Shown piece by piece: positions 14,901 through 55,624 of a stretch of DNA of 58,925 nt. The stretch is from Candidatus Kapaibacterium sp. GTDB taxonomy: Bacteria > Bacteroidota > Ignavibacteria > Kapaibacteriales > WFXC01. The stretch spans positions 1 through 58,925 of the forward strand of contig JALWJX010000050.1 of assembly GCA_026996895.1 (NCBI GenBank). The letters run 5' to 3'. The notes below the pieces were generated by a model that did not search any database, was not told the origin of the DNA, and worked only from the letters and a program-made list of their open reading frames with translations. The first letter of the stretch is position 1. Each line of letters begins with the position of its first letter. A program made the translations under genes and the position numbers.

Positions 14901-15400
14901 TTACCGGGGGAAGTTTGCAGGGGGCGTACTTGATCAAGATACCCGCTGGCAATTATGAGGTTGAGCAGGCTCGCTTACAGTTAGTAGGACCTTCTGGAAA
15001 CATCAACGCCCGCGGCGCAGACTATGACCAGCGGGATGGAACGTTCTGGCTTTCTGACTTTGCCGGAACCATCTACAAGATCGTTGGTTTCCAGATTCCG
15101 AATTCGACACCGGAACGGTCAGGCAGGGTCGCTGCTCCCCCGATCCAGGTTCAAAAAATCGTCCCGAACCCGGTGCTGGAGAAAGCAACTGTCCATTTGC
15201 TGGTGCAGCAACCCGGCACGCTGACGGTGGAATTGTACACGCTGGATGGGCGGTTGCAGCAAACGGTGCTGGAGCAACAGGTCAGCAGAGGTGAGTTTCA
15301 GTTCCCGCTGCAACCTACAGGAAGCAGCGATGTGTACCTGTTGCGCTTTCTGTTCAATGGGGAACCAGTTGCAACAACGACCTTTACGTTTATCCGGTAA
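11945..15400 (+). CDS. Secreted Asp-box (BNR/sortilin-like) repeat protein with T9SS sorting domain
   Basis: The protein of 1151 residues starts with a signal peptide (MKGIVVYLVAFLSWYGVFSQ). From about residue 85 to 720 it carries about ten Asp-box motifs of the form S/T-x-D-x-G-x-T/S-W (for example STDGGETW, TTNGGQTW, STDAGKTW), which form beta-propeller blades as in sortilin-type glycoside hydrolase-like proteins. A second, NHL-like propeller region follows (FTDITINRDNGTIYVHK and neighbours). The last 85 residues (VPNPVLEKATVHL through FTFIR) resemble the T9SS type A sorting domain, which is cleaved on export or surface attachment. No catalytic residues of a peptidase or glycosidase were identified. 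An upstream in-frame start at 11918 would precede the signal peptide and was rejected. Confidence 0.85.
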   Translation: MKGIVVYLVAFLSWYGVFSQTVEQYYRSLPNVKPKEREQFFYEARAYPYDRIPFRARVKAIHQAEQLSKRSSAHALATQPEWYPIGPFYIGGRARTVVVHPTDPATAWIGAAAGGIWKTTDYGETWTPVFDNETAIAMGSLAIDFTNPDILLAATGEMSSNIDAYLGDGVFRSTDGGETWTQIGLVTVGAFSKIWIHPQNPSLVIAGATKNGAGVYRSTDGGMTWEKTFNGIVSDVSMNPADPQEWFIGVTGKGIYYSSDGGKTWEERNSGLPISGIGRVSVHQAPSDPNILYALMEVQGIGTIYKSTDRGSSWQNVYTGSNAFFNGQGWYDQYIVVHPTHPDTVLAGGIDIWRTTNGGQTWENITNGYGGGPLYGGDRVHVDQHHAAFAPSNPDIVYAVTDGGVYLSTDAGKTWKNINNNLAITQFYAMDIDQSVDNKTYGGTQDNGTLGNYQQEDRWSHVAGGDGFFVAVDYENPHIIYGEFFGGQLWKRNLQTGEFKSIMDGIDPNDPALWSAPIAMDPADPLILYHGRRRLYINSFGGEQPWEVIAPDFPSLNGSISAIAVSPVDPDILYIGTSRGEVYRSTDAGETWTSVAENGLVNRYVTDIVCSEQNAHTAFITFSGFGVPHVFRTTDAGDSWENISSMLPDIPCNAVAVNPEDDNNIFVGTDIGVFATYDGGNTWLPYGVGLPKVPVVDLRIHKESLALRAATHGRSMWEVPIEDGVEAFAILRPAGGEDFSALSTQPITWYGFDLPVKVEYSLDDGQTWQLIVESVSAQSTLWKLPATSTIAARIRVSSLSNPDQVAVTPRFSIQPIHPGSILKISGVSHVPYGIAYDGQGNLWATSFYGNRLYKYNAETLELIASFQMPVGDSLFTDITINRDNGTIYVHKMASLSGGQGLIIALDADGNLKKTYPSPATQYPIGLVWLENDTLLVGDRNLEKLYLYDLSEQRVLGTFDNPFTGDFGPRGLCRDPQGNIYQVSTDFTGGSLQGAYLIKIPAGNYEVEQARLQLVGPSGNINARGADYDQRDGTFWLSDFAGTIYKIVGFQIPNSTPERSGRVAAPPIQVQKIVPNPVLEKATVHLLVQQPGTLTVELYTLDGRLQQTVLEQQVSRGEFQFPLQPTGSSDVYLLRFLFNGEPVATTTFTFIR

Positions 15401-22400: not shown

Positions 22401-23660
22401 AGCGGGAATTTTGCCGATACGGTGGATGTGCAAGTTCCTGATGCTTTTGCAGCGGCTGTTTCCGTAACGCCGCTTTCATTCCCCCTGTCAGTTAATGAGC
22501 ACCGTTCCTTTGGTGTCCAGTTGGATCCGACTGTCCTGAAGGAAGGGGTTTATCGCATTCCGGTTGTCCTTGCCTGGCGGCAGTGTGGAGGACAGGATAC
22601 CGTTGAACTCAGCGTGGCGATTCGAGACCCACGAGCGGTTTTCCATCCTGCAAATCTTCAGATCGGACCTGTGTTTGCCCGCAAGGAACAGGTGACAGCA
22701 ACGGTCTATCTGGTCAATCCCTCCGCTTATTTCCCGATCGAAGTAACGGACATCCAGTGGGATTCTCCTGTGCCAGCAGCGCTGATGCTGTCACATCCCC
22801 CACTCCCGGTAACAGTAGCAGCAGCCGATTCATTGCCCGTTTCGATTCGCTATGCGCCGCCAGTTCCCGATACGGTCAGCACCGCATTACGCGCAACGAT
22901 TGGTCCGCGCTGTGATCGGCAAAGCACCGCAGGAGTGGCGGTGATGGCAGTTGAAAAAGTCTATCCACTGGTGCTCAGTATTCCAGCATACGAGGCAATT
23001 CCGGGAGATACGATTGATATCGCTGTTCTGGCACGGCTGGAGGGGAAAGATGCAGAAATGCAGCGAATGGAATTTGCTGTGGACTTTCTGCCGACTATCT
23101 TTGTGCCGTTGCAGGTGTCCCTGGGCAATGGTTATGCTGCCGTTCCATTTACCTCCGATCTGGGTCGAACCATCGTCACCCTGGATTCTCTCCTACTGGC
23201 ACAATCGATCTTATCGTTCGCAGGGTCTGATCAGGATACTCTGATCACGATGCGGGGTATAGTCCAGTTGTCTGATCCGAGCGTTTCTCCCTTAACGATA
23301 GCAGATGTTACGATTCAGTCTCCTGATCGTTTTGCCGTTACTACTATCGATGGGACGCTCAAACTTCAGCAAATCTGCTTGCTGGATTTGCGGACCATTC
23401 AGCTTGCTTCCACATTCAGCGTTGTTCGAGTTGTGCATCCAGCGCCACAGCCGGCGATTGTGATCAATGCCTCAGGACCGATGGAGCTTCAGCTCTCCGT
23501 TTACAGTGTCACAGGGGTACTTGCTGCCCAACAAACCATTGCTGTCAGTGCGGGGCAACATTCGATCCCACTACCGGGCACGCTGCCCAGTGGAGTATAC
23601 TTCTGGGAGCTGCGGTCGCCAATGGAGATGGCAAAAGGGTACCTCTGGGTGGTGAGGTAG
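19452..23660 (+). CDS. Secreted Asp-box/Ycf48-like protein with choice-of-anchor-D-type repeats and T9SS sorting domain
   Basis: The 1402-residue protein has a signal peptide (RRWLYGMLVVLVLPAVAQ). Residues about 45-315 hold six Asp-box motifs (TTDGGKTW, TTDGGRTW, TTDGGNTW and variants) as in Ycf48-type propellers. The middle, about 320-1160, is a chain of immunoglobulin-like ASH/choice-of-anchor-D-type domains (VDFGTVCIDTPKDTAISIQNL is a clear example). Near residue 1165 a cohesin-like segment begins with IPGDTIDIAV. It leads into a conserved tail CLLDLRTIQL and a T9SS-like sorting domain ending GYLWVVR. The start at 19452 follows a good GGAGG site; an upstream in-frame start at 19320 would put 44 non-signal residues first. 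Probably surface-displayed; no enzymatic motif seen. Confidence 0.85.
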   Translation: MRRWLYGMLVVLVLPAVAQWQRIELPAPYRYGYFLDVFFLPSDPQYGWACGFNGYVVRTTDGGKTWKGTQLPAPANHMESIHFVSPLVGWCSGTNPDRIYRTTDGGRTWTDITPNPTGELWGCYFVNDSVGVLVGGGCGTPQNFYRTTDGGNTWTLKQYHEPGSGLSDVILYSANGLGYAISSGRIWRTTDGGRTWSIFAITGPKHWQEEISKNGNSFLLPSAGNTCNGDGPGGEMGFSPDNGNTWLAYSTGKRMFGSFLLTPRIGWGVGDSGTAIRTTNGGYAWELLNCGVEGINLDDIWFVNDTTAFIAGAGGLYRMVWPPVQPHPDTVQFDTVCIGDKQVEKIWIKNYWRKDYPAYTELIGSSAFTTDLRPTLTVAGCDSMDARIVFEPKRAGKHTAVLRLTTPTVGRSFLIYIEGYALPPTHYQVSRDTLIINPAFCGQNNTGGVTLQPVDTSAFSLQSVERVSGSSHIRIASPLPLEITEPGTDLLFQINPPDTGWYEARFRLFVNQCSPDTVIVVRAYGVSPIIVAPQRVQHIAACRDVDTVAVPVRNGGNDTLKISAVTLQGSDTAIVQALFWRSGQTLPVAIPPKAADTLQLVIQVQQNQSYNFSIALANNDRTQVRGNANPKIVAVQISSFQPELELSATQVDFGTVCIDTPKDTAISIQNLSPQSSVLDFIMPATAFQLISPANPPVKLSPNQQINLQLRFAPTELGEFTDTLIVLVQPCNLRFAIVLHGRAITTDVAAMPAQIQMTISPGDTTVVPVRLRSTGTAAAVIDTILLIPQRSDWMIVAPALPQTLQSGEELTVQLKLFPSSDTVYVGKICASGDAECPWSICVDVDISAKNKLLTVQPGILALPEFVCSATPVQDTVWVTNTGSQSVTIYGAAVTAPELEWQFDGGLPFALDPGAAVAFVVRWTPITPRAAIDTLRIFASVDTVAIPVSFGWYRPELEIVKAPASLPDTLFRCEPAQQWQWEVRNSGNFADTVDVQVPDAFAAAVSVTPLSFPLSVNEHRSFGVQLDPTVLKEGVYRIPVVLAWRQCGGQDTVELSVAIRDPRAVFHPANLQIGPVFARKEQVTATVYLVNPSAYFPIEVTDIQWDSPVPAALMLSHPPLPVTVAAADSLPVSIRYAPPVPDTVSTALRATIGPRCDRQSTAGVAVMAVEKVYPLVLSIPAYEAIPGDTIDIAVLARLEGKDAEMQRMEFAVDFLPTIFVPLQVSLGNGYAAVPFTSDLGRTIVTLDSLLLAQSILSFAGSDQDTLITMRGIVQLSDPSVSPLTIADVTIQSPDRFAVTTIDGTLKLQQICLLDLRTIQLASTFSVVRVVHPAPQPAIVINASGPMELQLSVYSVTGVLAAQQTIAVSAGQHSIPLPGTLPSGVYFWELRSPMEMAKGYLWVVR

Positions 23661-26700: not shown

Positions 26701-27977
26701 AGGGAGTGGTGAAGATCTGGAATGCCGATGCGGTGTGGCAATTGCAGATTTGGGATGTGGAGTTTGATAATGGGGTAATGAGTGATCCGCAGGCGTTTTG
26801 GGTAGAGAACTGGCCACAGTTTCCGGTGACGTTGGATGTGGGAGATACGCTGGAGCTTGCCGTACGGTTTCGGGCACGGACGTATCCGTCTGATAGCGTA
26901 CGGGTGCGGATAGTGAGTGATGCGGCAGCGGGACCGGAGGAAGAGCCGCAGGTAGAAAGTGGGGTGATGGTGCGAGGCTGTGCGTATGTGGTGGGGCTGG
27001 AAGCAGAGGGGACGGTGATCGGACCGGTATTGGGGTGTGATGGAGGGGAAGGATTTATAGTGGTGCGGAATACGGGTGGAGCGGTGGTAGATGTGACGGA
27101 TGTGCGGATCGTTGGTGGGGATGTGGGAGAGTTTGAGGTCGTAGGACCGCGGCAGTTTGTGGTACCGGCAGGCGGGGAGCGGCAGGTAGGCGTACGGTTG
27201 TTGCCGGGTGAAGCGGGGCAGTATGAGGTAGAGGTGCAGGTGGAAAGTGGGAGTGGAGACACGACGGTGGTGGTAAGAGGGGAGCGGTATTCGGTGCCGG
27301 TGGTGTTTGCTGTGGAGTCAGTGGAAGAAGCAAAGCTGCCGGGAGATACGGTCGCCATATCGCTGAGCTACACTGACAGCAGTGGAGAGGCAATGCTGGA
27401 TACCATAGTGCTTTTCCTCCGATATGATGCACGAGCACTGGGATACCTTAGCATCACCTGGGTTCAGCCAGACTGGACAATGACCGTAACGCCAACTGGC
27501 TTTGGCGAACTTCTGGTGCAAGCCCGTGGGGCTGTGCCATTAGCCAGCGGAATATTTGCGACCCTGCGTTTTGTCGTCTACGCAGAAACCCAAAGTGATA
27601 GTCTCACGCTTGATCTGGCGGTCCAGAATATTGGCAATCGTGCACTGTGCGTCGAACCACAGACGCAACCGGGAACGATACCACTGGCAGAGTTTTGCCT
27701 GCGGAAGTTGCGTAACATTGTATTAGGTACCGCGTACGGACTGCAGGTACAAGTGGACAAGAGGCAACTTGTTATCCGCTATGGAGTCGGACTGGACGGA
27801 CCCGTTCATCTTCAAGTATTTAACAGCGTTGGTCGCCAGGTCTGGAATTTCCGGCAACGTACGGCGGCTGGATGGTGGGAACAAACAATTTCAACCCGTT
27901 TCCTGGGAACAGGACTCTATTTCGTTCACTTCCGCAGCGGGCGTTACTCCCAGACCGTACCGGTATGGATTGAGTAG
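23754..27977 (+). CDS. Secreted IgGFc-binding-domain protein with ASH-type repeats and T9SS sorting domain
   Basis: The 1407-residue protein has a signal peptide (FFTLFILFLGGLSAFAQ). Residues about 30-500 match the pattern of IgGFc-binding N-terminal domains (GREFWIAFPQN at the start, then VYVMSAHQFTSEGYLALPVEVWG and LLTMPPPVHAWGKEYIT). A long middle section holds ASH/choice-of-anchor-D-type Ig-like domains. A cohesin-like domain (LPGDTVAISLSY) leads to the tail FCLRKLRNIVL and a T9SS-like sorting domain. The tail is homologous to that of the preceding gene, so the two are related in their 3' parts. The segment 26440-27330 has markedly different codon use (see findings). Either of two adjacent ATGs (23754, 23757) may be the start. 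Confidence 0.85.
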   Translation: MMRRWFFTLFILFLGGLSAFAQKREAISPQWLLDNGTQGREFWIAFPQNENTNYRGAGGDGAFRLLEIYVTSSVDTKFMLHIPGLGIGPIPYKVEAMKITTISSQGGPLNESLEMRDEGGGKSLKAIHITAEDPISVYVMSAHQFTSEGYLALPVEVWGKRYIHVGHYDYKDLSWNYPRGSGFVILAKYDGTIVQVKLRGRNSGYIFWQGGKQQIQFPRDWNKPYTITLNEGEAFVFQTTGESQEQLFDITGTEIVATKPIGVISYHVRSIMPIAAGLTSRDHLLTMPPPVHAWGKEYITGELLRNGRGDFFRIVASQDNTVWEVKWYDKQSGELIGQLSGLLKKAGEFFEYMNAWQPGQLESIRGFSVWKADKPVLVCQYSYSAAWDAATDFDPFYYWVVPVEQYTKGTVFQTPSNRAFTKNYFNILAIGDPDDPEQKKLKTIKLDGQYVWQKVPSFLSQRIPGTNVYYAVLNVNPGPHRIEGETPFGGYIYGFATWESYGWPAATAVNKIDELDTLEPVLEFVEDCGDYDFTAWEERNGKPNDNPRQIDQGVSKIELIPEKSFNYRLVLVDPPKLENTGEKISPAKFRLEVIDKTKDAQAYFVVVDRAGNVAYDSVFYEAPKLVPSDTLVFFDTVRVGKSRTLLLAVVNESDSVVLVEEVKLKIADEFEIVSITPDIPASLAARDTLWVELRYTPKDERSDPEDWDIDSLFATTPCVEFPLAELRGQGVLPHIVVGDWDAGQVPVGLTRCNSENIQDFQRTVEIRNPGSTVLTITEIRNVSAPFSLDQTHYTLPIKVQPGETIYFKGACFTPPAVQQYQIDVEFVCDAPAGDDNISRWTGEGIQGAPYITSYDWGWQRLQTVHSGQVEVGNGGNNAVTIDTVYLTEGTEHFRITGYEFEGTPLNDPQGVTLNPKRKLLVFVEYEPQVETAAGDTLKVGIRAEFVDAEAVEGELRGQAYLPKIGAEGYEFECVELGTESAEQGVVKIWNADAVWQLQIWDVEFDNGVMSDPQAFWVENWPQFPVTLDVGDTLELAVRFRARTYPSDSVRVRIVSDAAAGPEEEPQVESGVMVRGCAYVVGLEAEGTVIGPVLGCDGGEGFIVVRNTGGAVVDVTDVRIVGGDVGEFEVVGPRQFVVPAGGERQVGVRLLPGEAGQYEVEVQVESGSGDTTVVVRGERYSVPVVFAVESVEEAKLPGDTVAISLSYTDSSGEAMLDTIVLFLRYDARALGYLSITWVQPDWTMTVTPTGFGELLVQARGAVPLASGIFATLRFVVYAETQSDSLTLDLAVQNIGNRALCVEPQTQPGTIPLAEFCLRKLRNIVLGTAYGLQVQVDKRQLVIRYGVGLDGPVHLQVFNSVGRQVWNFRQRTAAGWWEQTISTRFLGTGLYFVHFRSGRYSQTVPVWIE

Positions 27978-41046: not shown

Positions 41047-41838
41047 ATGTCATCAGCCGTTGGCATTATCCCTGTTCGGTATGAATCCACCCGCTTTCCT
41101 GGCAAGCCATTGATCGATCTGGAAGGAAAATCGATGATCGAGCGAGTATGGAACGGGGCCCGGTCAGCGCGGCTGTTAGAGACCGTCGTCATTGCCACGC
41201 CCGATACCATCATTGCTGAACACGCCCGATCATTTGGTGCTTCAGTCGTGCTCACCCCCGATCCTTTTCCCTCTGGTTCCGATCGGGTAGCGTGGGTCGC
41301 CCGTCATCACTTTTCTCGTGCGGACATCATCGTAAACGTCCAGGGAGACGAGCCTTTAATTACCGGGAATCTCATTGATCAGCTCGTCACTGCACTTCGT
41401 AGCACACCAGGTGCAGATGTAGCAACACTGATCGAGCCAATCGATACAACGGAAGCAGTTGAGGACCCCTCTGTTGTCAAAGTCGTTCACAATCAGGCAG
41501 GCTATGCGCTATACTTCTCGCGAGCTCCTATCCCCTACACGCGAACTTCTCTCGAAAAACCCTACTACTACAAGCACATCGGTATTTACGCTTTCCGCGC
41601 TTCGATTCTTCAGGAATTCGTTACGCTCCCGCCTTCCCCCCTGGAACGTATTGAGGGACTGGAGCAGCTTCGCCTTCTGGAAAACGGCAAAACGATTCTT
41701 TGCATCGAAACTTCTTATCCACTCATCGGTGTCGACACGCCGGAAGATGCGGACAGAGCACGGCAAGTTCTCCGCCAGCACCAGCGTCCTTCGGAAGCAC
41801 CACACTCACCGAGCGAAAATCCACCACAACAGATGTAA
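41047..41838 (+). CDS. kdsB: 3-deoxy-manno-octulosonate cytidylyltransferase
   Basis: The 263-residue cytoplasmic enzyme activates Kdo as CMP-Kdo for lipid A core assembly. The nucleotide-binding start is IIPVRYESTRFPGKPL, followed by IVNVQGDEPLI, FSRAPIPY, YYKHIGIYAFR and LERIEGLEQLRLLENG, all characteristic of KdsB. The last 20 residues are a polar tail. It begins one base after the gatC stop and ends the operon. With kdsC in this window it gives two of the Kdo pathway steps. Confidence 0.96.
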   Translation: MSSAVGIIPVRYESTRFPGKPLIDLEGKSMIERVWNGARSARLLETVVIATPDTIIAEHARSFGASVVLTPDPFPSGSDRVAWVARHHFSRADIIVNVQGDEPLITGNLIDQLVTALRSTPGADVATLIEPIDTTEAVEDPSVVKVVHNQAGYALYFSRAPIPYTRTSLEKPYYYKHIGIYAFRASILQEFVTLPPSPLERIEGLEQLRLLENGKTILCIETSYPLIGVDTPEDADRARQVLRQHQRPSEAPHSPSENPPQQM

Positions 41839-42060: not shown

Positions 42061-42651
42061 TTACTTGCGCGGTCCAAACAGAAAAAATGCGTTTAGCACA
42101 AACTCACTACTATCGGGTAGGGTAAAAAAGGTGTGGAGTTCTACGCCTACCTGATGTTTTTGGGCAACGGGATAAACCCGCAGTGTAACTGAATCCACCG
42201 GGATCGGCACTGTCGTAAGCTGCCGCCGATTTATGGTCTGGAACCAGAACAAAATGTGATTTTTCTGGTCTGGATCACTTCCCAGCATCAGCTTTTGTGG
42301 AATAACCTCGATAGAATCCAGCACCAGTTGAAACCGATGGAAGCGATAACGTCCTTCCGCAAGCGCAGAATCTGCATCCGCTACTTCCGCAAACAGTGTT
42401 GTTGCAAACACCGCAGGTGTTGCCAGCGTATCCAGTACTGGCTGCTTCAGGAAATGAATCTGCCAACTGGAAGAATCTGCCACCGGCGGAACGGTTGCAA
42501 TATCGTACTGCAACAACTCTACTGCCATTGGCACCGCCGGTTCAATCCATCGATAGCGTGGCACGTCCAGATCTGTAGGATTTGTGCACTGGACTATGCT
42601 GCCAACGATGGCTACAAAAATCAACCACCAGTACAGGAAGCGGCGCATCAT
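42061..42651 (-). CDS. Hypothetical lipoprotein downstream of an ECF sigma/anti-sigma pair
   Basis: The 196-residue protein has a lipoprotein signal peptide (LYWWLIFVAIVGSIVQC, then TNPTD) and a mostly beta-stranded remainder (RYRFHRFQLVLDSIEVIP, SVTLRVYPVAQKHQVGVEL) ending NAFFLFGPRK. No family was recognised. Its ATG overlaps the TGA of the anti-sigma/barrel fusion gene, so it is translationally coupled to that gene and is likely part of the same envelope response. It may be an accessory or sensor lipoprotein; this is inference from context. Confidence 0.75.
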   Translation of the reverse strand: MMRRFLYWWLIFVAIVGSIVQCTNPTDLDVPRYRWIEPAVPMAVELLQYDIATVPPVADSSSWQIHFLKQPVLDTLATPAVFATTLFAEVADADSALAEGRYRFHRFQLVLDSIEVIPQKLMLGSDPDQKNHILFWFQTINRRQLTTVPIPVDSVTLRVYPVAQKHQVGVELHTFFTLPDSSEFVLNAFFLFGPRK

Positions 42652-43799
42652 AGCCCGACTTTCAGCCCATAAACCAAGCTCATCTTCTGCGTTGCAAACA
42701 CTCGTTCATACACCTGATACAACAGCGTACTTCCTTCGACACCCACTTGCAGAGCAACATTGTCAGTCAGCCAAAGCGACGTTCCAAGCGTTGCTCTGAG
42801 CAATGGGCCAACCCTGGTCCCCCCAACAAAGGCTTCTGCAAATGGAGACACTCGTGGCATCAATTCCCACTGGGCACGATAAAAGCCTCCAGCCCACCAC
42901 AGAATTGGTACCTGCTCATAGTACACGCGTACATCGTACTCTTCGCGCTCTTCATCTGTTTCCATATGAGCGAACAAATAAAACCGCTGCGGGAACGATT
43001 CTCGCCCAACAGCAATGCCGACAGCGTGGTTTGGAGTAAGCTGATATCCCAGTGTCAGTTGAAACTGCCGCATTAGCGGATCGGAAAATCTTTGGGTCTG
43101 AGGATTTGCTATCATTGCCACCTTTTCCCGATACTCGCCATAGAACCGATCCCATCGAATCGAGGGACTCAAGCTCCAAAGACCCAAAGAGGGAGATTCC
43201 GGTAACACCACACCAACCGGCTGTTGTGACAGAGAGGAACTTGGTAATGGAACAGATGCTACACTGACAGCCTCTACAATCGGTGTTTCCTGCTCCGCTG
43301 GTTTTTGCGAAGGCACTTCTTGCTTTTCGTTCTCTATGGTACGTCCCTGCTCCACAACACTGACAGGGACAGAGAGGTCAGCGGTATCTGCTACAACTGG
43401 CAATGCCTGCGCTGGTGCTGTAAATTCGACCACCGGTAACTCCGGTACTGCCTCTCCGATCTGTACAGAGGACGAAATTTGCGACCATTGTCCAGTGAAC
43501 CACACAATTCCTGAGAGCAAAAGTCCAACCAATATACCACCACCGAAGGTCAGCAAAGGGCTTGTAATGGAACGTTTTCCTCGGAACAATCGATCGAATA
43601 CTGTTCGTGTCACCGTCGGTGGCGGCATCCGCACAGGCTGTTCCCGCAGCGATCGATTCATTAACACCAAGTGGCGAAATTCCTCCCGGAGTTCTGGATG
43701 CTTCGCCAGTGCTTCGAACACTTCTGCTTCCTTACCGGGTTCCAGCTCCCCTTCCAGCAGCAGGTGCACCCAGAATGAATATTTCTCCATCAAATCCAT
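42648..43799 (-). CDS. Anti-sigma-like protein fused to an outer-membrane beta-barrel (Dma-like)
   Basis: The 383-residue protein has three parts. Residues 1-75 are helical and resemble the cytosolic domain of anti-sigma factors (SFWVHLLLEGELEPGKEAEV, then HPELREEFRHLVLMN). Residues 81-101 form one membrane helix (PLLTFGGGILVGLLLSGIVW). Residues about 110-205 are a Pro/Glu/Val-rich linker long enough to cross the periplasm. From 206 on there are eight or so amphipathic strands ending MSLVYGLKVGL, as in small outer-membrane barrels. This layout matches the dual membrane-spanning anti-sigma (Dma) class reported in Bacteroides. The ECF sigma gene is 21 bases upstream. No zinc-binding HxxxCxxC site is present in the N-terminal domain. 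Confidence 0.8.
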   Translation of the reverse strand: MDLMEKYSFWVHLLLEGELEPGKEAEVFEALAKHPELREEFRHLVLMNRSLREQPVRMPPPTVTRTVFDRLFRGKRSITSPLLTFGGGILVGLLLSGIVWFTGQWSQISSSVQIGEAVPELPVVEFTAPAQALPVVADTADLSVPVSVVEQGRTIENEKQEVPSQKPAEQETPIVEAVSVASVPLPSSSLSQQPVGVVLPESPSLGLWSLSPSIRWDRFYGEYREKVAMIANPQTQRFSDPLMRQFQLTLGYQLTPNHAVGIAVGRESFPQRFYLFAHMETDEEREEYDVRVYYEQVPILWWAGGFYRAQWELMPRVSPFAEAFVGGTRVGPLLRATLGTSLWLTDNVALQVGVEGSTLLYQVYERVFATQKMSLVYGLKVGL

Positions 43800-43820
43800 T
43801 GTCCTGTCTATTGCTCAATT

Positions 43821-44384
43821 TCACATATGTTGCGCAAAGTCTTTGATGTACGGAGCCAAAATCTTTTGCACCTGTTTCCGCGCTCGATAGGCGCGAACCC
43901 GTGCCGCTTCTTCCGAAATATTCAATGCCTGCGCAATTTCAGCATATCGATATCCCTGATATTCCCGCAGGATAAAAATTTCCCGGAGATCATCTGGCAA
44001 TAATCCAACAGCAGTTTCAATCAACTTCAACATTTCTTCCCGATCTGGATCATCTTGTGTTGGACGCATATATTCCTCGTCAAAGCTCACAACATCCTGC
44101 CGACGCTGTCGCTTCATATTCAAGCAGGTATTTCGGGCAATGCGCAGCAGGTACGCCGGCAAATTTGTCATTTCCCGCTCCTGCTGCGCGCTCTGATAAA
44201 ACTTGGCGAATGTTTCCTGAAACGCATCTTCAGCGTCCTCCTTGTCCCGGAGAATGGTCCGGCAATAATTGTAGATCCGGGTGGCGTACCGAGAATACAA
44301 TTCAGCAAATGCCGCCTCGGCTATCGACTTTTTCTCCCGGAGCAATCCGAACAATTCTGCATCGCTGTAGCCGGAATAATCCAT
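43821..44384 (-). CDS. ECF-family RNA polymerase sigma factor
   Basis: The 187-residue protein has sigma region 2 (FAELYSRYATRIYNYCRTILRD, then DAEDAFQETFAKFY) and region 4 (LLPDDLREIFILREYQGYRYAEIAQALNI, then EEAARVRAYRARKQ), with no region 1.1 or 3. It should direct polymerase to envelope-stress-type promoters under control of the anti-sigma/barrel protein encoded next. A TAATTTTG element 30 bases upstream of the start suggests its own housekeeping promoter; autoregulation cannot be judged. Confidence 0.95.
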   Translation of the reverse strand: MDYSGYSDAELFGLLREKKSIAEAAFAELYSRYATRIYNYCRTILRDKEDAEDAFQETFAKFYQSAQQEREMTNLPAYLLRIARNTCLNMKRQRRQDVVSFDEEYMRPTQDDPDREEMLKLIETAVGLLPDDLREIFILREYQGYRYAEIAQALNISEEAARVRAYRARKQVQKILAPYIKDFAQHM

Positions 44385-44413: not shown

Positions 44414-44421
44414 CAAAATTA
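44414..44421 (-). promoter_or_regulatory. Candidate -7 promoter element TAATTTTG for the ECF operon
   Basis: It matches TAnnTTTG exactly on the minus strand and lies 30 bases before the sigma factor start. No TTG was found at the usual -33 spacing. Confidence 0.45.
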
Positions 44422-44671
44422 ACACAAAGCTGCCAATTTTGTTACACTCCACTGCTGCCGTTGTATCTGCACTTGCTAAAAATTTTCCAGCCCTCATTCC
44501 AGAGCACCACTATAGCCCCAGTATATCCCCGTTTTGCAACAATGATCGATGCAACAAGCTGAAGATCTAATTGCAAACGACAGCGGTAGAAGTGATACAA
44601 ACAGTCTCTCCATTGCCGAAAACAATGGTGCTCAACAGAGCTGATCTATACCTCTCTGATGCGTTCCCCGA

Positions 44672-45955
44672 TCACTGCTGCTGGAACTGGTAACTGAGCC
44701 CAAACGTAAATAGCGTAAATTTTCCAATGTTGAGATCCAGCGCCAGTTGCACAGGATGAAGGTCTATCGCCACTCCTGCAATCCACTTGATCCCTGTATC
44801 CTTGGCACTAATGGCAGTACTCTGTGGCTTGGTATCGCCGGGATAATCCGGTGGATCAGGGACCCATTCGTCATCTTGCGGAATCCCATCGCCATTCTGA
44901 TCAATCCACCGAATGAGTTTCAACTGCGCCTGGAGCGATCGTGGCAGCACATAGGTGTATGTTCCGGTAATATTCAAATGTTCCAGTGCCAATGCCGTAA
45001 ACAACTGCCATTTCTTCCATCGGCGGCTGGCTTGCACACTCAGATTCCAGATCTCAGCATTGGCTTTTAACTTTGCATTGGTCACTCCAACGGTATTTTC
45101 CAGCGAGGTTCCCTGATACGCTCCCTGCACCGCTATATCAAACGGCAGGCGGAAGTAACGAGAAATTTGATGTTTGACAGCAACACCCCAGAACGCAAAT
45201 TTTCCCACGGCGGTATCAAACTCAATGGGTGGCACAAAGCGCAATAGCAGCTCGGTCCCCCACAGTCCTCCCATCTCCAGTTGAGGAACAGCAGCAACAA
45301 TGGTATTGATATCTCCACCGGTGGGTAGAGGAAATTCCGTTGGCATCGTCCGAATGACCTCGTCCACCAGTGTTGTATCAAAGTCTGGATAAAACTGCCG
45401 TACCAGCGGATAAAACTCCTGCACTTTTTGCTGCAAATACGCTCGTGGAATTGTCAGATTTACCCGGTCATATCCCACAATGGTTGGCGCCCGCTCTGGA
45501 ACCACGATGGTGCTGTCCACATACAATCCCTGATGCAAAATGTAGTGCAGCAAATGAGACAACAGTCCAACCGTATCCCGAACAGCAATTTCGGGGGTAA
45601 GTTGAAGGTACGGGAGAATGTTCAATGCTGAATCGTGTGGCAATTGGGGAGCGTACGTTTTTTGATCTCCCCGAACAAAGCCCAGCATTGTTTGAATTCC
45701 GAAGCGCACATACCACCGTCGATCACCAACATAAGCAGTCGAAAAAAACCGTGCATTCGAGGTCGCATTCGTAATTTCTACCAGCGGCTTAACGAACGGT
45801 TGAGCGTTCAGTTCAAAAAGATCCCGACTAATGGCACGAGCCAACTCTACCGAAAGGGGATTATACTGCGGCTGAGCACTCATAATGCCAATCACACACC
45901 AGAACAACCATCCGCTCCACCACCGGCATCCAAGTGTCTTTTGTGAGTTTGTCAT
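44672..45955 (-). CDS. Putative outer-membrane protein (DUF6588-like)
   Basis: The 427-residue protein has a signal peptide (WWSGWLFWCVIGIMSAQ). The N-terminal half has helices and strands (YGIQT-like strand RFGIQTMLGFVRGD), the C-terminal half regular barrel-like strands ending FTLFTFGLSYQFQQQ. A calcium-loop-like stretch, DQNGDGIPQDDEW, follows about residue 365. The overall plan recalls Bacteroidota DUF6588 proteins, but this needs a profile match. The start at 45955 follows GGAGAG; in-frame ATGs at 45973 and 45988 would overlap the divergent promoter region. It is 287 bases from the ECF operon and probably separate. Confidence 0.6.
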   Translation of the reverse strand: MTNSQKTLGCRWWSGWLFWCVIGIMSAQPQYNPLSVELARAISRDLFELNAQPFVKPLVEITNATSNARFFSTAYVGDRRWYVRFGIQTMLGFVRGDQKTYAPQLPHDSALNILPYLQLTPEIAVRDTVGLLSHLLHYILHQGLYVDSTIVVPERAPTIVGYDRVNLTIPRAYLQQKVQEFYPLVRQFYPDFDTTLVDEVIRTMPTEFPLPTGGDINTIVAAVPQLEMGGLWGTELLLRFVPPIEFDTAVGKFAFWGVAVKHQISRYFRLPFDIAVQGAYQGTSLENTVGVTNAKLKANAEIWNLSVQASRRWKKWQLFTALALEHLNITGTYTYVLPRSLQAQLKLIRWIDQNGDGIPQDDEWVPDPPDYPGDTKPQSTAISAKDTGIKWIAGVAIDLHPVQLALDLNIGKFTLFTFGLSYQFQQQ

Positions 45956-45977
45956 CGTTCTTTTTCTCTCCATTTTG

Positions 45978-45985
45978 TAAGTTTG
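45978..45985 (+). promoter_or_regulatory. Candidate -7 promoter element TAAGTTTG for the DUF2892 gene
   Basis: It matches TAnnTTTG exactly, preceded by TTTTG and followed by C, and lies 43 bases before the ATG at 46028. The same octamer precedes the IgGFc-binding protein gene. Confidence 0.6.
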
Positions 45986-46027
45986 CATTGTCCCTGTCAG
46001 GAAGTCTCACAAAAAACGGGGTAGACG

Positions 46028-47781: not shown

Positions 47782-50700
47782 CTATTTCGCTACTGTCACC
47801 GGATAGGTCACCGTGCTCCCACCAGCATCCATCCGCAGGAAGTACGATCCCGAAGCAATACCGGCTGGCAATTCAACCGTCAGCATATGCTGTCCAGCCG
47901 TAACGACGCCTTCATACAGGCGGAGAATTTCCCGACCGGCTGCATCGTACAGTGCCAGTCGCACAGCACCCGCCTGCGAGGTTACGTAGGTAATTCGGGC
48001 GCTTCCCTGTACCGGCATCGGATCAACTCGCAGGATAGCCGTTTCAGCAACGTCTGCCGGCTGTTCTGTATCCACGCTGGTCACCGTTGCCCGACCGACC
48101 AACTGTACCTCTGCCGGAACACCCGTGTTGTTGATCAACCGCAAGGTCGCCTGCTTTTCACCACCAGTCGTTGGTGCAAAGCGAATTGTGAGCATTCCCG
48201 TACTACCCGAAGCGATCAAAATCGGTGTCGGCGTCTGGATGTTGAATTCATCCTGTGCCGGACCAACGATCAACGCTTCACTGATTTCTAATGGAGCATC
48301 ACCGTTGTTGGTAACGGTCAGTTGCAGCTCACGGAAGCTATTCGGCGTTACTTCACCGAAGTCCAGCGTGGAGGCAACGCTGATTTCCGGCGCACCACCA
48401 ATTCCCATCAGCGTCGCACTGATGACGCCATATTCATCGGTCACAAACCGGAGGAAAGCGTATTTCAGTCCACTGCTCAACGGCGTAAAGGTTACCCGCA
48501 CCGTCTGCGACGCACCGGGCTGGAGTGTGAAGCCAACGGTATTGTCTGCACGGAACATCTCCGCATCTTCGCCTTCAACCTTCACCGAGTACACCACCAG
48601 CGGTGCCGTTCCCGTATTGGTAATGCTCAGCGACATTTCACGGGACCGACCAACCGGTAGGCTACCGAAGTTCAGTGTTTGTGCACTCAGTGCCACGCCC
48701 GGTGCCACTGCACGTCCATACAACTGAACTTCTGCCTGTCCAGTGTTCGTTTCCACATACAACCGGGCAAACTTATCACCAGCTTCAGTCGGCACAAAGC
48801 GCAGCGTGACGACCACTTCTTCCCCACCCTGCAGGGTCGTCGGCAACTGCTCTGACACGCTGACAATGGTAAAGTCTGCTTGTGCCGGTCCACTCAGGCT
48901 TAAGCCGCGCACTTCCACAGGCAACCCGGTAGCATTCCGAATCGTCAGCACCTGATTGCTGACTTCTCCGACGCGTACATCGCCAAATTCCACGGATGTC
49001 GAGCTCAAAGCAACGCCCGGCACTGCTCGCAATCCGCGCAACTCCACACTCCGCGGCTGAATAGAATTCGATTCCGCAATGAGTCGAGCATCAGTAATAT
49101 CCAGCTCATCACCTGGTAGCAAGGTCACAACAACATCAAAGGATTCTCCCGCACCAACTTCAATACCAGAGGGTGCTGCCAATTGGAAGGCATCGGCGTG
49201 AGCACCAATGATTGCCAACTGGGTAATTGCCAGCGGATATCGTCCAATATTCGTAACCGTTACCGTTCGCTGTGCTCCAACCGTTTTATCGACCGTGCCA
49301 AAGTCTAACACGCCATTGACAATGTCAGCACCACTGAATTCAATCTGTGGCACTGCTCCATCACCACTGAGATCAATGGTTACACTGGCGCCGTCAAGGG
49401 TGAAGTTCAACTGTGCCGTCCGAATATTTGGCTGTGATGGATCTTCTGGCAGCACATTCGGTGCAAAGGTAACAATAATCGGATCGCTGGACTCACCTGC
49501 CAGCACAGGGATCACATCTCCTGCTTGCAGTTCGGTTCCCTGATACTCAACGCGATATTCGGAGTTATTCGGTCCGCCAATGCCATTGAAGACTGCGACG
49601 ACATCATAGGCTCCACCAGAGTTGTCAATGTACAACTCAGAAGAAGCTTCGGTAAAGACCCGAACCGCTCCGAAGTCAATCATATCATTGGAGAAAGCCG
49701 CAGCCGAAATGCCATTTCCAACGCAGGTCACTTCATAATACTGATCCCCCATCGCATCAGGCGAGTAGAACGTAAAGCTCGCTGATGCCGATCCCAGTGC
49801 TGTCGGCGTAAAGGTAAAGGTAATATCCAGAGAAGAATTCGCTGCAACAACCACACTTCCGCTACCGGCATCGTGACTAAACGGACCGACACTTGCCGGC
49901 GGCAGTTGAACGGTGACATCCGCATCACCATTGTTGATCAACTGCAGGGTCAATTGAGCACTCTGTCCTACAAACACATTGCCAAAGTCCAGAATACCGT
50001 TGCTCGGATCCAGACTCAGGGTAACCGGATTCACCCCTTTCCCCGTAATGGGTACTTGCAGCACATTGACACCCACGGTTGGCGGTACGTCTGGAATGTA
50101 CGTCACATCCAACTGCGCATCCCGACGTCCCACCTGCGTTGGGGAGAATTCCACCACCAGCGTTCGGCTCTGTCCTGGCAACAGCGGCGTCTGGGTGTCG
50201 CCAATCAGGTTATACGCATTGGGTTGATTTGCATACAGATCAAATCCAAGATTCAGATAGTCGAATTGATGCGAGTACAATGGACCACCACTCATGCCCG
50301 GCAATGTAAGGGTTTCAAAGTATGCCGGGAAGTTCCCGTTGTTTGTCACGGTAATCGTTTGCTGTGCCACATCATTGAGCTGCACATTGCCAAAATCAAT
50401 CTGTGGCGGATCAACCGCAACATCGGCAAATAATGCGGTGCCTTCCAGATTGAAGACAATTTCTGGCTGACAAATATCGGTTGTGATAATCCGCAGCACT
50501 GCGTGGCGCTTTGCTTTACGCTGTCCATCCACGAAGGGACGCGGCTTAAAATGGATGTAGAGATTCACCGCTGGTTTTCCATCCACTCCGTGAATATCCA
50601 GCACATATGGCGTTCCAATAGTCGCACCACCACCAAGATCAGCGACCCACTGGATGAAGCTCTTACCAGCACCCAGTGCGCCCAACATCACTGGATCGAC

Positions 50701-53700
50701 TGGATAGGCAACCGGATTCGGTTCCGATACACCGCTGGGCAAATCGAAGCCCACAATTTCAAAGTCCGGAAAGTCGACTCCCTCGATGAAGATGGCTTTG
50801 ATACCAATTTTCCCGGTCGAAAAATCAGCTCCCGTTGGCGTGTTGCCTGTTTCCTGACTGTTCCGCAGCGTAATAGCAACAAAGTTGGAATCTCCGGAGA
50901 ATACACCGGGACGGTATGGATACGGTAGATCAAAGTTCACCATCGCATTCGGCGGCAAGTAATTTGCTCCAAAGCTCAGATGCGCAAAGTTCCCCAGCTC
51001 CGTGCGCAGCGCTGGACGCAGCGACGAACCTTCGACGATCAGCTCCAGATACTTGTACACATCTCCATCGTAGGTGAAATCAACGTCGTTATTCCGATTC
51101 GAATGCGGAATGCGGACTACTCCGCGCAACGAGCCAACCGACGGTGGCATCAGTTGCGACGGACGGAAGATGACATCGAAGCTCAGGGTATGATAAGCAG
51201 GCAACTCGACAACCGGGGTTGCGTTCAAATCAACTGTACTGACTGGATTCCCCAGAGCATCACGGATAACGGCTGGGGTGTTATAGTCAATTGAAAAGTC
51301 ATCTGAAAGTGCCGGGACAAATACATTATTTCCTGGTCCACCCAACTGATATACCTGTGCTTGATCGAAGTAGAGGTACACCGGCGTTACTGCCCCATCA
51401 TTGACATTCCCAACGGATGTCGGAGCAGGAATTCCATTGCCAACAGTTAAGTGCAGATGCACCGTATCCCGATTAGCAGGTGCACCGAGCAACCCGCAGT
51501 AATTATCATAGATCGCTTCACGCCACGCCCGGTACACCGGCGCTGGACGCGTATAGCCACCATCGATAACAACGTCGCTCACACCGGTCGCATTCGGATC
51601 GACCACCGGGAAGGGACGAATTCCTTCACCAAAGGCGCTGTATTGCAATTCGACCGTTGGAAACTCAACGCCAACGAAACTCTGCACTAATCGCACGACC
51701 CCGTTGCTGACACCGACACTTCCGGTCGAGCGGGTTCCAGCATCATAATGCACCCAGATGACCAGCGCTGTAGATGCGCTGGGCGACGGCGTTCCTGTCC
51801 ACCCTAATGGCTGGAGGTCAAACGGGAACACTGCATCCGCGGGTGCACTACCTCCAGCAGCAGCGATTAACTCAGGAGTCGTGACTTTCACAACGTGGAA
51901 TGCCCCCGGGGCACCTGTCAGTGCAAATGCCTGAATATCCCCTGCGGAAAGTTGCATTGGCGCATTCCCGTGGTTCACCAGTGTATACACGATCACCGTA
52001 TCTCGAACGCCGAAGTACGTGGGAATACTAACTCCTCGGCGGGCTAATTCTTCCGCTGGCGCATAATAGCCCAACGGCTTATCGCTGCTGGTCGCATCTG
52101 CCAACTCGTGTTTGCCAAAGTCTACATTATCCGCAATCGCCGTGCCCACGTGCATTGCTGGATCGTAGTACTTAACGTGTCCCACAACATTGATGGAGTA
52201 CGTATTCATCAAGTTTGCTGATTGCGCTGCTCCCGTTGGGAGATTAGCATCGGTCAGAATTTCAATTGTTCCAATTCGATCCGCACCAATGTTGTTCAGA
52301 TCTGGCGTGTTCGCACGGGTCGGCGAAAAGACCACATCAAATCGGACGTACGAAAGATTGTTCGCTGGATCTGCTGGATCCTGACTATACAACGGCTCTA
52401 AGGTAAACTGTACATACGACTCACCATTGATGGTGACCGACTGATAGCTTACACCACTGCTGGCGAATGGTCCATCCAGCGTAAAGGCAGCAGACGGTAC
52501 ACCGTTTTCAAAGATCGATTGCCGCACGTAGAAGGTTGCCACCGCATTGCCATTGTTCACAATGTAGAAAGAGGTCTTTCCTGGCGTACCAGCGAAGGTA
52601 ACCATACCACCCCACGGTAACAAATCATTCACTGCGCCCCAGTAGCTCGTTACTTCCAGATCCACTCCAGCATCACCAACATCTGTTGCCGGAACGTCAA
52701 CACCCCCTTCCCGGATTACCAATCCACTGCCATTCAGTTTCGGCACGCCAGCGGTGTTAATAGGTGCTTGCTCGCTGGAGTTTGCCTGCGCCTTGATCGC
52801 CCGCAGAAAGCCGCGATGCAACCGAATCGTTGCATTCAATGTCCCTGCTTGCGACAGATTCTCGCTGGCACCAAAGGTTGATCCTGCCCCATTTGCGTAA
52901 TTGTGCCAGAACCCTGCATCAGTCGGGACAGGCTGCGAATTATTCGTAATGACAGCGTCAAAGGAGTAGCTGGTTGCACCCGTTTCCACCGACGGCTTGA
53001 CACCAAAGCTGGTCCCCTGACTCCACGGAAAGTCGCTGCTGGTCACCTGTGGCGTGTACGTGACTCGATAGACCGCTTCATCACCCGGCGCCAGATTCGT
53101 ACTGCCAGTTACCAGCACAGCCGTTGCGGAGAAACGATCGTTCAAGTTCCCGCTGTTCAAATTCGTAATGGCAGCAATGGTCAGGTCTGCACTTCCAGTA
53201 TTTTTCACCAGAAACTGCTCGCTAAAGCTCTCAGGAACGCTGGGATTGCCTGCTGAGGGACCAAAGATCCGATTTCCAAGATCTAAGGTCGGGACGCTCT
53301 GATTACCCGGAACATCCGTTGACAGAGGAACTGCAATCGATACCCGCGGTGCAAGCGACTGCGCACTGACGTTCAACGTTGCAATATCAGCACCGCCATT
53401 ACAGGTTTGATTCCCTTCCGGCACGACCAACTGGACGCCGCTGTAATCGGCAATCCACGTCATCGGATCCGCCGCTGCTGCATGTCCCGCGCCAGTCGGA
53501 GCGAAGGTTACGGTGACATCAACACTCTGTCCGGGATTAACAGTAACAATTGCCGGATTTACAGAAAAGGAAGCAGCACCTGTCCCCGTAAGGCTCAACG
53601 TCCCGCTCCACGCGGAAGTACCATTATTTGTCAAGGTAATCGTGAGCGATGTCGAAGATCCCACTAAGGTTTGCGGGAAATTGAGCGTTCCCGAAACAGC

Positions 53701-55422
53701 CAGATCCGGATGCGTTTCTGTCCCTTGCAGCGGGAGATTTGTTCCATTATTGGGATACATCACAACGCCACTGGCAACGTTGACCGTCATAATCCCGGTC
53801 ACCAGCCCACTGGATGGACAATTCCCGGTAAACGTAATGGTTGCTATTGCCTGTGCACCAGCCGCAATAGTACCGCTGTAGCTGGACGAAAACTGTGCAT
53901 TAGAAAAGACCAATCCATTGACAGTGATAGCATTCGCACCAACATTCACCAGTGTTATTGTCCGCGTTGCCGTTCCGCCATCCGCATCAACGCTGCCAAA
54001 GTCTAACGGTGATGATGCAATCACAGCGATCGCATCGTAGTGCTGTGTAGCGATCGAGGGAACAGAGCTCACCACCGGTGGCAAATTATTGTACGTGATC
54101 AACTTCGTATTCGCATTCGCATTGGCATCCTGCACTTCATTGCCCGGTGTCACATTGCCGTTGAACACCAGGTAATTGTTCGGCGCGTTCTCATCAGCAT
54201 CGTTAATCAATCCTACCGTAGCGGATTGGTTCGTGTTATTTGTTCCGCTGCCATAGCTGAACCGAATGCCATTACCCGAAGCCATCAACGTCAGCTCAAA
54301 CGTAATAAAGCTGGTCGCCGTCCCCCATTCCATTGAGCGCCACCGCACTTTGAATTCGGAGCTGTTGCCTTCATAGGAAACCGCCCCATTATTGCCAACG
54401 CGCAGATCATCCCAGAGCACTGCCAGCATCGGTGTATTGTTGAATTCCCAGTTTTCAGGATCGTTCAATGGCACACTGGACAGTGAGGATGGAAAGCTAT
54501 TGTTGTAGCCCAGCGCAACCCATCCATTGGATGAAATTTTCACCTGATTGTATGGCTGCCCATTGAAGTAGAAGGTAAACGGCAAATTGATGGCACTGCT
54601 GAGTGCATCGTCTGTACCGGCACCAAAGACCACATTTGCCAGATCCAATCCCGGATTGGCAATTCCAGTGCTGTTATTGGAGAACACGTACATTCCGATA
54701 TTAGCCGTAGGTGCCGGCGCCGTGATCGTAATATTGTCAAGCGCGATTTCATCTCGGGCACCACCAGTTACATCATCCCCTGTCCATCGCAGGTAGAAAT
54801 ACCCGCCATTGGGGATGTTAATACCGGTAATATTGACTGTCCGCGTTGCGCCGAGTACAAATCCCAGTGCATCGCTGTTCCCCGGCGTTTCATAGTGAGC
54901 GGCTGCGACAGTGGTATAGGTTACATTGTCGTCAGAATACGAAAAATCCAGTTGATAAATGGAATTCTGGTCATTATTGACATAAATTTCGTAACTCACA
55001 TCGAGTTCCGTGATTGCCTGCCCCGTGTTGTTCTGGATTCGCAGCGTCAGTGTTCCGGGTGTGAAATCGCTACTGGAGGGTTGAATCATAAACCGATAAT
55101 CGCCACCACCAGCATCCAGGGCATATAAACCACCCGTTGACACTCCCCCAGTTGACACCCCTCGAGCAAAATCTCCGCTGGTCTGCGTCCCTCTGAAATT
55201 CAGATTTCCTGTTGACAACCCTGTAATTGCCCAGTCATCAGAGTCCAGTTGTCCAAATCCCGGCGTTGGAGTAAACCCCGCTCCTCGCCATCCATTAAAG
55301 TCAATCGTTACGGCCGTGTTAAACGCCGAAATCTGCACCTGTGCCTGGAGGTTCGACACCAGCAGCAGATTCAAAGCGACGATTCCAACGAATCCCACGA
55401 GAAAAGCCGTTACACGTTTCAT
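47782..55422 (-). CDS. Giant secreted choice-of-anchor-D repeat protein with T9SS sorting domain
   Basis: The 2546-residue protein has a signal peptide (VTAFLVGFVGIVALNLLLVSNLQAQ). Residues about 25-240 form a domain typical of T9SS cargo N-termini (TIDFNGWRGAGFTPTP near the start and DEIALDNITITA at its end), followed by a region like those of surface adhesins. The rest is a chain of about eleven ASH/choice-of-anchor-D Ig-like domains, each with a DFGxVxVG-type first strand and TVTNNG second strand (DFGNVQLNDVAQQTITVTNN, DFGNVFVGQSAQ, EFGDVRVGEVSN, NFGSLPVGRSRE). The last 95 residues form a T9SS-like sorting domain (MPVQGSARITYV through YPVTVAK). AAGGAG precedes the start at 55422; an upstream in-frame ATG at 55497 lies before this site. 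A strong terminator ends the transcript. Confidence 0.88.
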   Translation of the reverse strand: MKRVTAFLVGFVGIVALNLLLVSNLQAQVQISAFNTAVTIDFNGWRGAGFTPTPGFGQLDSDDWAITGLSTGNLNFRGTQTSGDFARGVSTGGVSTGGLYALDAGGGDYRFMIQPSSSDFTPGTLTLRIQNNTGQAITELDVSYEIYVNNDQNSIYQLDFSYSDDNVTYTTVAAAHYETPGNSDALGFVLGATRTVNITGINIPNGGYFYLRWTGDDVTGGARDEIALDNITITAPAPTANIGMYVFSNNSTGIANPGLDLANVVFGAGTDDALSSAINLPFTFYFNGQPYNQVKISSNGWVALGYNNSFPSSLSSVPLNDPENWEFNNTPMLAVLWDDLRVGNNGAVSYEGNSSEFKVRWRSMEWGTATSFITFELTLMASGNGIRFSYGSGTNNTNQSATVGLINDADENAPNNYLVFNGNVTPGNEVQDANANANTKLITYNNLPPVVSSVPSIATQHYDAIAVIASSPLDFGSVDADGGTATRTITLVNVGANAITVNGLVFSNAQFSSSYSGTIAAGAQAIATITFTGNCPSSGLVTGIMTVNVASGVVMYPNNGTNLPLQGTETHPDLAVSGTLNFPQTLVGSSTSLTITLTNNGTSAWSGTLSLTGTGAASFSVNPAIVTVNPGQSVDVTVTFAPTGAGHAAAADPMTWIADYSGVQLVVPEGNQTCNGGADIATLNVSAQSLAPRVSIAVPLSTDVPGNQSVPTLDLGNRIFGPSAGNPSVPESFSEQFLVKNTGSADLTIAAITNLNSGNLNDRFSATAVLVTGSTNLAPGDEAVYRVTYTPQVTSSDFPWSQGTSFGVKPSVETGATSYSFDAVITNNSQPVPTDAGFWHNYANGAGSTFGASENLSQAGTLNATIRLHRGFLRAIKAQANSSEQAPINTAGVPKLNGSGLVIREGGVDVPATDVGDAGVDLEVTSYWGAVNDLLPWGGMVTFAGTPGKTSFYIVNNGNAVATFYVRQSIFENGVPSAAFTLDGPFASSGVSYQSVTINGESYVQFTLEPLYSQDPADPANNLSYVRFDVVFSPTRANTPDLNNIGADRIGTIEILTDANLPTGAAQSANLMNTYSINVVGHVKYYDPAMHVGTAIADNVDFGKHELADATSSDKPLGYYAPAEELARRGVSIPTYFGVRDTVIVYTLVNHGNAPMQLSAGDIQAFALTGAPGAFHVVKVTTPELIAAAGGSAPADAVFPFDLQPLGWTGTPSPSASTALVIWVHYDAGTRSTGSVGVSNGVVRLVQSFVGVEFPTVELQYSAFGEGIRPFPVVDPNATGVSDVVIDGGYTRPAPVYRAWREAIYDNYCGLLGAPANRDTVHLHLTVGNGIPAPTSVGNVNDGAVTPVYLYFDQAQVYQLGGPGNNVFVPALSDDFSIDYNTPAVIRDALGNPVSTVDLNATPVVELPAYHTLSFDVIFRPSQLMPPSVGSLRGVVRIPHSNRNNDVDFTYDGDVYKYLELIVEGSSLRPALRTELGNFAHLSFGANYLPPNAMVNFDLPYPYRPGVFSGDSNFVAITLRNSQETGNTPTGADFSTGKIGIKAIFIEGVDFPDFEIVGFDLPSGVSEPNPVAYPVDPVMLGALGAGKSFIQWVADLGGGATIGTPYVLDIHGVDGKPAVNLYIHFKPRPFVDGQRKAKRHAVLRIITTDICQPEIVFNLEGTALFADVAVDPPQIDFGNVQLNDVAQQTITVTNNGNFPAYFETLTLPGMSGGPLYSHQFDYLNLGFDLYANQPNAYNLIGDTQTPLLPGQSRTLVVEFSPTQVGRRDAQLDVTYIPDVPPTVGVNVLQVPITGKGVNPVTLSLDPSNGILDFGNVFVGQSAQLTLQLINNGDADVTVQLPPASVGPFSHDAGSGSVVVAANSSLDITFTFTPTALGSASASFTFYSPDAMGDQYYEVTCVGNGISAAAFSNDMIDFGAVRVFTEASSELYIDNSGGAYDVVAVFNGIGGPNNSEYRVEYQGTELQAGDVIPVLAGESSDPIIVTFAPNVLPEDPSQPNIRTAQLNFTLDGASVTIDLSGDGAVPQIEFSGADIVNGVLDFGTVDKTVGAQRTVTVTNIGRYPLAITQLAIIGAHADAFQLAAPSGIEVGAGESFDVVVTLLPGDELDITDARLIAESNSIQPRSVELRGLRAVPGVALSSTSVEFGDVRVGEVSNQVLTIRNATGLPVEVRGLSLSGPAQADFTIVSVSEQLPTTLQGGEEVVVTLRFVPTEAGDKFARLYVETNTGQAEVQLYGRAVAPGVALSAQTLNFGSLPVGRSREMSLSITNTGTAPLVVYSVKVEGEDAEMFRADNTVGFTLQPGASQTVRVTFTPLSSGLKYAFLRFVTDEYGVISATLMGIGGAPEISVASTLDFGEVTPNSFRELQLTVTNNGDAPLEISEALIVGPAQDEFNIQTPTPILIASGSTGMLTIRFAPTTGGEKQATLRLINNTGVPAEVQLVGRATVTSVDTEQPADVAETAILRVDPMPVQGSARITYVTSQAGAVRLALYDAAGREILRLYEGVVTAGQHMLTVELPAGIASGSYFLRMDAGGSTVTYPVTVAK

Positions 55423-55624
55423 AGGCAAAACTCCTTTTTCTATACACACACCATTAAATTGCGCCATCATTCTGCACATTTTTATACACTTCACCACTTT
55501 CCAAAAACCATTGGGTGCAGTAGGAAGGGTAACCTAACGTACGGTCTTTGTGCCCTGCTTTTTACATTTAACGGAAACGTAAATTTACAACTTTTTTCGC
55601 TCATACGCAAACATTGTCAACTTT

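Follow-up and report, generated by a model that had tools for sequence, protein, structure and literature searches.

A three-gene module of Kapabacteria that may link an outer-membrane barrel and a tagged lipoprotein to an ECF sigma factor

Can a signal at the cell surface be carried to a cytosolic sigma factor by a single protein chain? The question is raised by three consecutive genes in the window, the whole stretch of 58,925 nucleotides that was analyzed, which is contig 50 of the 2.7 Mb genome of a Candidatus Kapaibacterium species. A preliminary description had proposed that these genes, all on the minus strand, encode an ECF sigma factor, a fusion of an anti-sigma domain to an outer-membrane barrel, and a lipoprotein, and the three ORFs were re-found where it had placed them. 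The features of the locus, from the upstream side, are as follows.

44672-45988 (-): DUF6588 protein (PF20230, 4e-33)
44420..44446 (-): TGTAAC-N16-TGTTA, a promoter-like element whose end is 35 nt upstream of the sigma factor ATG (conservation, word pairs, weight matrix)
43821..44384 (-): ECF sigma factor, 187 aa, P0002 (Pfam matches; grouping with other module sigma factors)
42648..43799 (-): fusion protein, 383 aa, P0001 (ORF; homologues across the order)
43566..43799 (-): RseA-type anti-sigma domain, residues 1-78 of the fusion (profile and NCBIfam matches)
43500..43556 (-): inner-membrane helix, residues 82-100 (hydropathy 2.0 across 19 residues)
43158..43499 (-): low-complexity linker, residues 101-214 (family length, disorder-promoting composition)
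42651..43157 (-): conserved barrel-like domain, residues 215-383, about 169 residues (strands, amphipathicity, weak barrel-family matches)
42061..42651 (-): lipoprotein, 196 aa, P0003 (lipobox, Cys22; overlap kept in the genus)
42556..42588 (-): N-terminal tag of the mature lipoprotein, residues 22-32, CTNPTDLDVPR (family comparison)

The sigma factor and fusion genes are 21 nt apart, and the fusion stop and lipoprotein start share the sequence ATGA, the coupling that had been noticed at the outset; both other genomes of the genus have the same three-gene order, which had been proposed as a check, and the same -4 overlap. The next gene past the lipoprotein (41047-41838) is on the opposite strand. 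On the upstream side, the DUF6588 gene is on the same strand, 287 nt from the sigma factor gene, and adjoins the module throughout the genus. By protein search, 59 of 61 genomes of the Kapabacteria order have homologues of the fusion; the source genome has one, and the highest number is 25, in the 7.9 Mb genome G017, where this type of signalling has greatly expanded. Sixty homologue loci were sampled, and then 20 further regions from related or comparison genomes. An ECF sigma factor ORF is immediately upstream on the same strand in 75 of 79 fusion ORFs, and a lipoprotein-like ORF is directly downstream of the fusion in about 50 of the 60 loci sampled first, about one sixth of loci having no detected lipoprotein. 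The recurrence of order and overlap within the genus, together with the sigma factor gene ahead of nearly every fusion, makes the arrangement more than chance. In 395 genomes sampled across the phylum, nearly all full-length matches came from the order and a few from elsewhere in the class; outside the class, what matched was mostly the N-terminal anti-sigma part. A literature search on sigma factors of Kapabacteria gave nothing relevant.

The sigma factor P0002 matches the Pfam families Sigma70_r2 (1e-15) and Sigma70_r4_2 (2e-15). In a FastTree phylogeny in which several inner supports are modest, module sigma factors cluster together, apart from 25 Das sigma factors; P0002 accordingly falls outside the Das/ECF21 clade, a grouping taken from the tree. 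The N-terminus of the fusion, described beforehand as anti-sigma-like, bears this out: residues 17-99 of P0001 match the NCBIfam anti-sigma models NF010501 (3e-4) and NF052375 (1e-3), and a profile (A5) of residues 1-80 from 34 members, searched against the whole PDB, found homology to the RseA-type N-terminal domain, its top three matches being RseA, DdvA and RsiW (E 1.3e-3 to 2.3e-3). The RseA_N domain was matched by 10 of 51 members, always weakly, and zf-HC2 was also matched weakly by some. No FecR domain was found in P0001 or the 51 members, and the module has no TonB receptor. The single transmembrane helix that had been predicted corresponds to the hydrophobic segment at about residues 82-100, which is present in all 51 aligned members with a minimum hydropathy of 1.5. 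The linker that follows was rightly noticed and is long enough to span the periplasm, but its length is about 118 residues rather than the about 95 first given; across the family it varies from 97 to 195 residues, about 70% of them disorder-promoting. A fully extended chain of this length (about 3.4 A per residue) exceeds the typical width of the periplasm.

The C-terminal domain is barrel-like, as had been claimed, in that its strands are conserved, seven alternating amphipathic segments stand out beyond column-shuffled nulls, and the C-termini of different members give weak, sub-threshold matches to eight separate families of outer-membrane barrels. A profile of this domain searched against the PDB gave only chance matches and no barrel. 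We take the domain as a small outer-membrane barrel, an assignment from sequence that is unproven because an AlphaFold model of the fusion, built from three close sequences, had a mean pLDDT of 34.

The lipoprotein P0003 has the lipobox IVQC with Cys22 as the acylated residue, and the family was correctly described as unrecognized, having no match in Pfam, NCBIfam or the PDB; AlphaFold with three sequences gave a mean pLDDT of 32. The bodies of the module lipoproteins fall into 24 clusters among 56 sequences, mutually unrelated save for one marginal link. What they have in common is the mature N-terminus, C-x-[SDN]-P-x-[DE]-[LVI]-x-x-x-[RK] (in short form CxSPxD[LVI]xxxR). Scored as present when at least three of four counted positions agree, this tag occurs in 37 of 55 module lipoproteins and in 1 of 62 other lipobox ORFs of the same loci (Fisher p about 1e-15), a comparison in which ambiguous cysteines were picked with the motif in mind for the module proteins only. 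A stricter count, which partly shares this lean in the choice of cysteines, gives 30/55 versus 1/62. The sole tagged control ORF sits 201 nt past a fragment of a module fusion. A DNA search of three genomes for other proteins with the tag was uninformative, its counts being no higher than those of a reversed-pattern control. That the tag stays constant while the bodies vary suggests that it docks at a fixed site, perhaps the barrel.

Upstream of the sigma factor genes, the three species of the genus have TGTAAC-N15-GTGTTA in common, with fixed spacing and differing spacer sequence. Among the regions upstream of 75 module sigma factor genes, some of which come from closely related genomes and are therefore incompletely independent, the top spaced word pair is GTAAC-N17-GTTA, found in 15 sequences versus at most 7 for any spaced word pair in shuffled controls. 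A weight matrix scores at least 10 bits in 45 of the 75 regions (1.2 expected); because the matrix was built partly from these same sites, the word count is the unbiased evidence. By the matrix, the element at 44420..44446 is the strongest in the window (26.5 bits; runner-up 9.2), and in its exact form it is single-copy in the source genome. Only 3 of 24 background ECF sigma factor genes reach 10 bits, and one of these (L188) adjoins a module fusion. Three members of a subgroup with no detected lipoprotein (L073, L075, L140) have a variant element, TGAAAC with the downstream half TGTATTAT, which hints that promoter and sigma factor may change together. A 9-bp inverted repeat upstream in the window was considered as an operator and rejected, as it is not conserved in the genus. 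ECF operons typically have a -35 region of AAC form and regulate themselves, and from this usual autoregulation we infer that the sigma factor of the module reads these promoters.

The exact element was searched in 41 genomes with a reversed control, and was in excess in some of them, most clearly in G059 (18 versus 2 copies), and not in others. In G059, about 14 near-identical copies precede genes for T9SS cargo and lipoproteins (L261-L271), which constitute a ready-made regulon. The genes downstream of 43 sites in several genomes were examined; no long ORF on the same strand contains any of these sites. A T9SS sorting tail (TIGR04183, E up to 0.1) is encoded by 22 of the 33 complete downstream ORFs, or by 21 of 32 if the one site picked for being a T9SS gene is dropped; lipoproteins and OmpA-like proteins account for several of the others. 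If the background is generously assumed to be 10% of genes, a binomial test gives p of about 4e-14, a figure weakened by the inclusion of related genomes and paralogues. T9SS tails number at least 150 in G059 (4.2 Mb) and 74 in the source genome. When 60 T9SS genes of the source genome were scanned, the element was not enriched before them as a class, and one clear T9SS-like target was found: L373:527-5251 on contig C95, which encodes a surface protein of 1,574 residues that has a VWA domain and Ig-like repeats and is a candidate target of P0002. Within the genus, this protein of 1,574 or 1,575 residues is the only clear target other than the module itself; its T9SS-like tail is weak (E 6e-4, below the curated cut-off). 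The element lies 103-107 nt upstream of the gene in two species, exact in G002 (orthologue in L372) and with one mismatch in the source genome. The window also encodes, at 47782-55497 on the minus strand, a protein of 2,571 residues that has repeats of Ig-like segments as well as a T9SS sorting tail; further T9SS tails lie at 15158-15361, 23445-23615 and 27771-27959 (plus strand). No T9SS-tailed gene in the window carries the element.

The best account of these observations is probably that the three genes form a self-regulating module from surface to cytosol, in which a bridging fusion protein and its lipoprotein partner govern a sigma factor that drives expression of T9SS surface proteins. 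The cytosolic RseA-type domain would keep the neighbouring ECF sigma factor inactive, and the fusion would reside in both membranes, its helix passing through the inner membrane, its disordered tether through the periplasm and its small barrel inserted in the outer membrane. The lipoprotein, translated together with the fusion and anchored via its conserved tag, would partner the barrel and report the state of the surface; if the barrel-lipoprotein complex were altered or failed to form, the anti-sigma domain would set the sigma factor free through a pulling force, proteolysis or both, alternatives between which sequence cannot tell. Once free, the sigma factor would use TGTAAC-N16-TGTTA promoters to express both its own operon and genes encoding large surface proteins exported by type IX secretion, which suggests that the cell surface and gene expression are directly connected. 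Such a single-chain relay, with the barrel and tagged lipoprotein outside and the sigma factor inside, is the most economical reading. The lipoprotein tag, the promoter common to the sigma factor genes and the presence of the same promoter before T9SS cargo are new here.

Among other explanations, the one with the best prospects, which we regard as a real though lesser possibility, is that sensing of the surface is left to the barrel alone and that the lipoprotein, instead of being its partner in this, is just one of the gene products that the sigma factor induces. Autoregulation of the promoter, if it exists, would induce the lipoprotein along with the rest of the operon, the lipoprotein bodies are as divergent as the clusters indicate, and the subgroup L073-L075 and L140 has no lipoprotein detected past the fusion. 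In Bacteroides, deletion of BT_1557 and its neighbours left Dma2-dependent vesicle production unaffected (PMC13088901). Weighing against a mere product, the lipoprotein is the next gene in most of the loci sampled first, often overlapping, and its tag is almost absent elsewhere; this adjacency and near-exclusive tag point to a physical partner within the module. It is rather unlikely that the element is the promoter of another sigma factor of general function in the envelope or T9SS and that the module is merely one target, even though nearly the same element accompanies all the modules, including several per genome, the T9SS genes of the source genome do not follow the module, and a general T9SS promoter used by a different sigma factor would look no different. 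The AAC form of the -35 region and autoregulation, which are textbook traits of ECF operons, the rarity of the element before other ECF sigma factor genes, and the variant element of three subgroup members favour the sigma factor of the module instead.

The remaining two alternatives concern the fusion. If its C-terminus were a periplasmic beta-sandwich or ligand-binding domain, the protein would be a conventional anti-sigma factor of the inner membrane with its sensor in the periplasm, as the low model confidence, the weak, sub-threshold family matches and the lack of a PDB barrel match would allow; yet different members match eight separate barrel families, the alternating amphipathic strands exceed the nulls, and a long variable linker would have little purpose in a purely periplasmic sensor, so that this explanation is improbable. 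Descent of the fusion from a common ancestor with Bacteroides Dma, as a true but highly diverged member, is unlikely as well, if less so. The four-part layouts are alike, the gene order of the dma2 operon is alike (PMC13088901), and both occur within the phylum Bacteroidota, but an hhalign comparison of 51 fusions with 28 Dma proteins gave a probability of 5% over the whole length and 0.4-16% by domain and found no homology; the RseA-type motif is missing from the N-terminus of Dma, the sigma factors form separate clades, and no full-length intermediates appeared outside the class in the phylum sample. A more far-reaching version of the single-chain relay is doubtful at present: that the fusions are a second, independently evolved class of bridging anti-sigma factor, in which the constant tags of lipoproteins with variable bodies dock in or thread the barrel, and that parallel sensors share one promoter code in control of type IX-secreted surface proteins. 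If it is true, the bridging class spans a whole order, up to 25-fold per genome. The module in any case would be a further, probably independent occurrence of the bridging layout, in a distant group of the same phylum, tied to a readable promoter and to T9SS-secreted surface proteins. For signalling from the outer membrane to a cytosolic sigma factor in one chain, it would supply natural variants by the dozen, together with a candidate for the partner and a prediction of the promoter.

The known systems that the module resembles differ from it in separate ways. Like RseA and RsiW, the fusion has an N-terminal domain, related by profile to these two proteins and to DdvA, followed by one transmembrane helix. 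Anti-sigma factors of the RseA type bind their cognate sigma factor and are eliminated through regulated proteolysis. In RseA and RsiW the C-terminal part is a periplasmic or extracytoplasmic domain; in the fusion it is a tether and a barrel-like domain. In PorXY-SigP of Porphyromonas gingivalis, an ECF sigma factor is tied to type IX secretion and a T9SS cargo protein feeds back (PMC4800418, PMC7712824), but this is a two-component route to the genes of T9SS components, with no bridging anti-sigma factor (PMC4800418). In RcsF-OmpA of E. coli, a surface-stress lipoprotein acts with a small outer-membrane barrel (PMC7553776); the analogy is functional only, as the proteins are different, the output is the Rcs pathway, and barrel and anti-sigma factor are not fused. 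The closest comparison is with Dma, which has been described as confined to Bacteroidota and is known from few Bacteroides examples. The analogy drawn beforehand holds: a predicted sigma-binding N-terminus, a transmembrane helix, a long disordered tether and a barrel-like C-terminus occur in the same order beside an ECF sigma factor gene, the barrel of the module being judged from sequence. The accompanying claim that the gene neighbourhood is unlike that of Dma was not borne out, for the dma2 operon has the same order of sigma factor, Dma and a third gene, which encodes a DUF4943 protein (PMC13088901). In the loci sampled from the Bacteroides family (L124, L125), this gene starts with a lipoprotein-like signal, and so Dma2 may also have a lipoprotein partner. 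The differences are that the N-terminus of the module fusion is RseA-type whereas that of Dma is short, that module sigma factors belong to another clade than Das, that the module lipoprotein is nearly universal and tagged, and that the module is predicted to act on T9SS surface proteins, not on NigD1 and PULs. Dma governs vesicle production and PULs by releasing its sigma factor; for the module, the promoter evidence points to T9SS cargo. The fusion thus appears to work like Dma, while membership in the Dma family is not supported, given the profiles, the motif and the sigma factor clades; we read the module as a parallel, Dma-like system that would control T9SS surface proteins.
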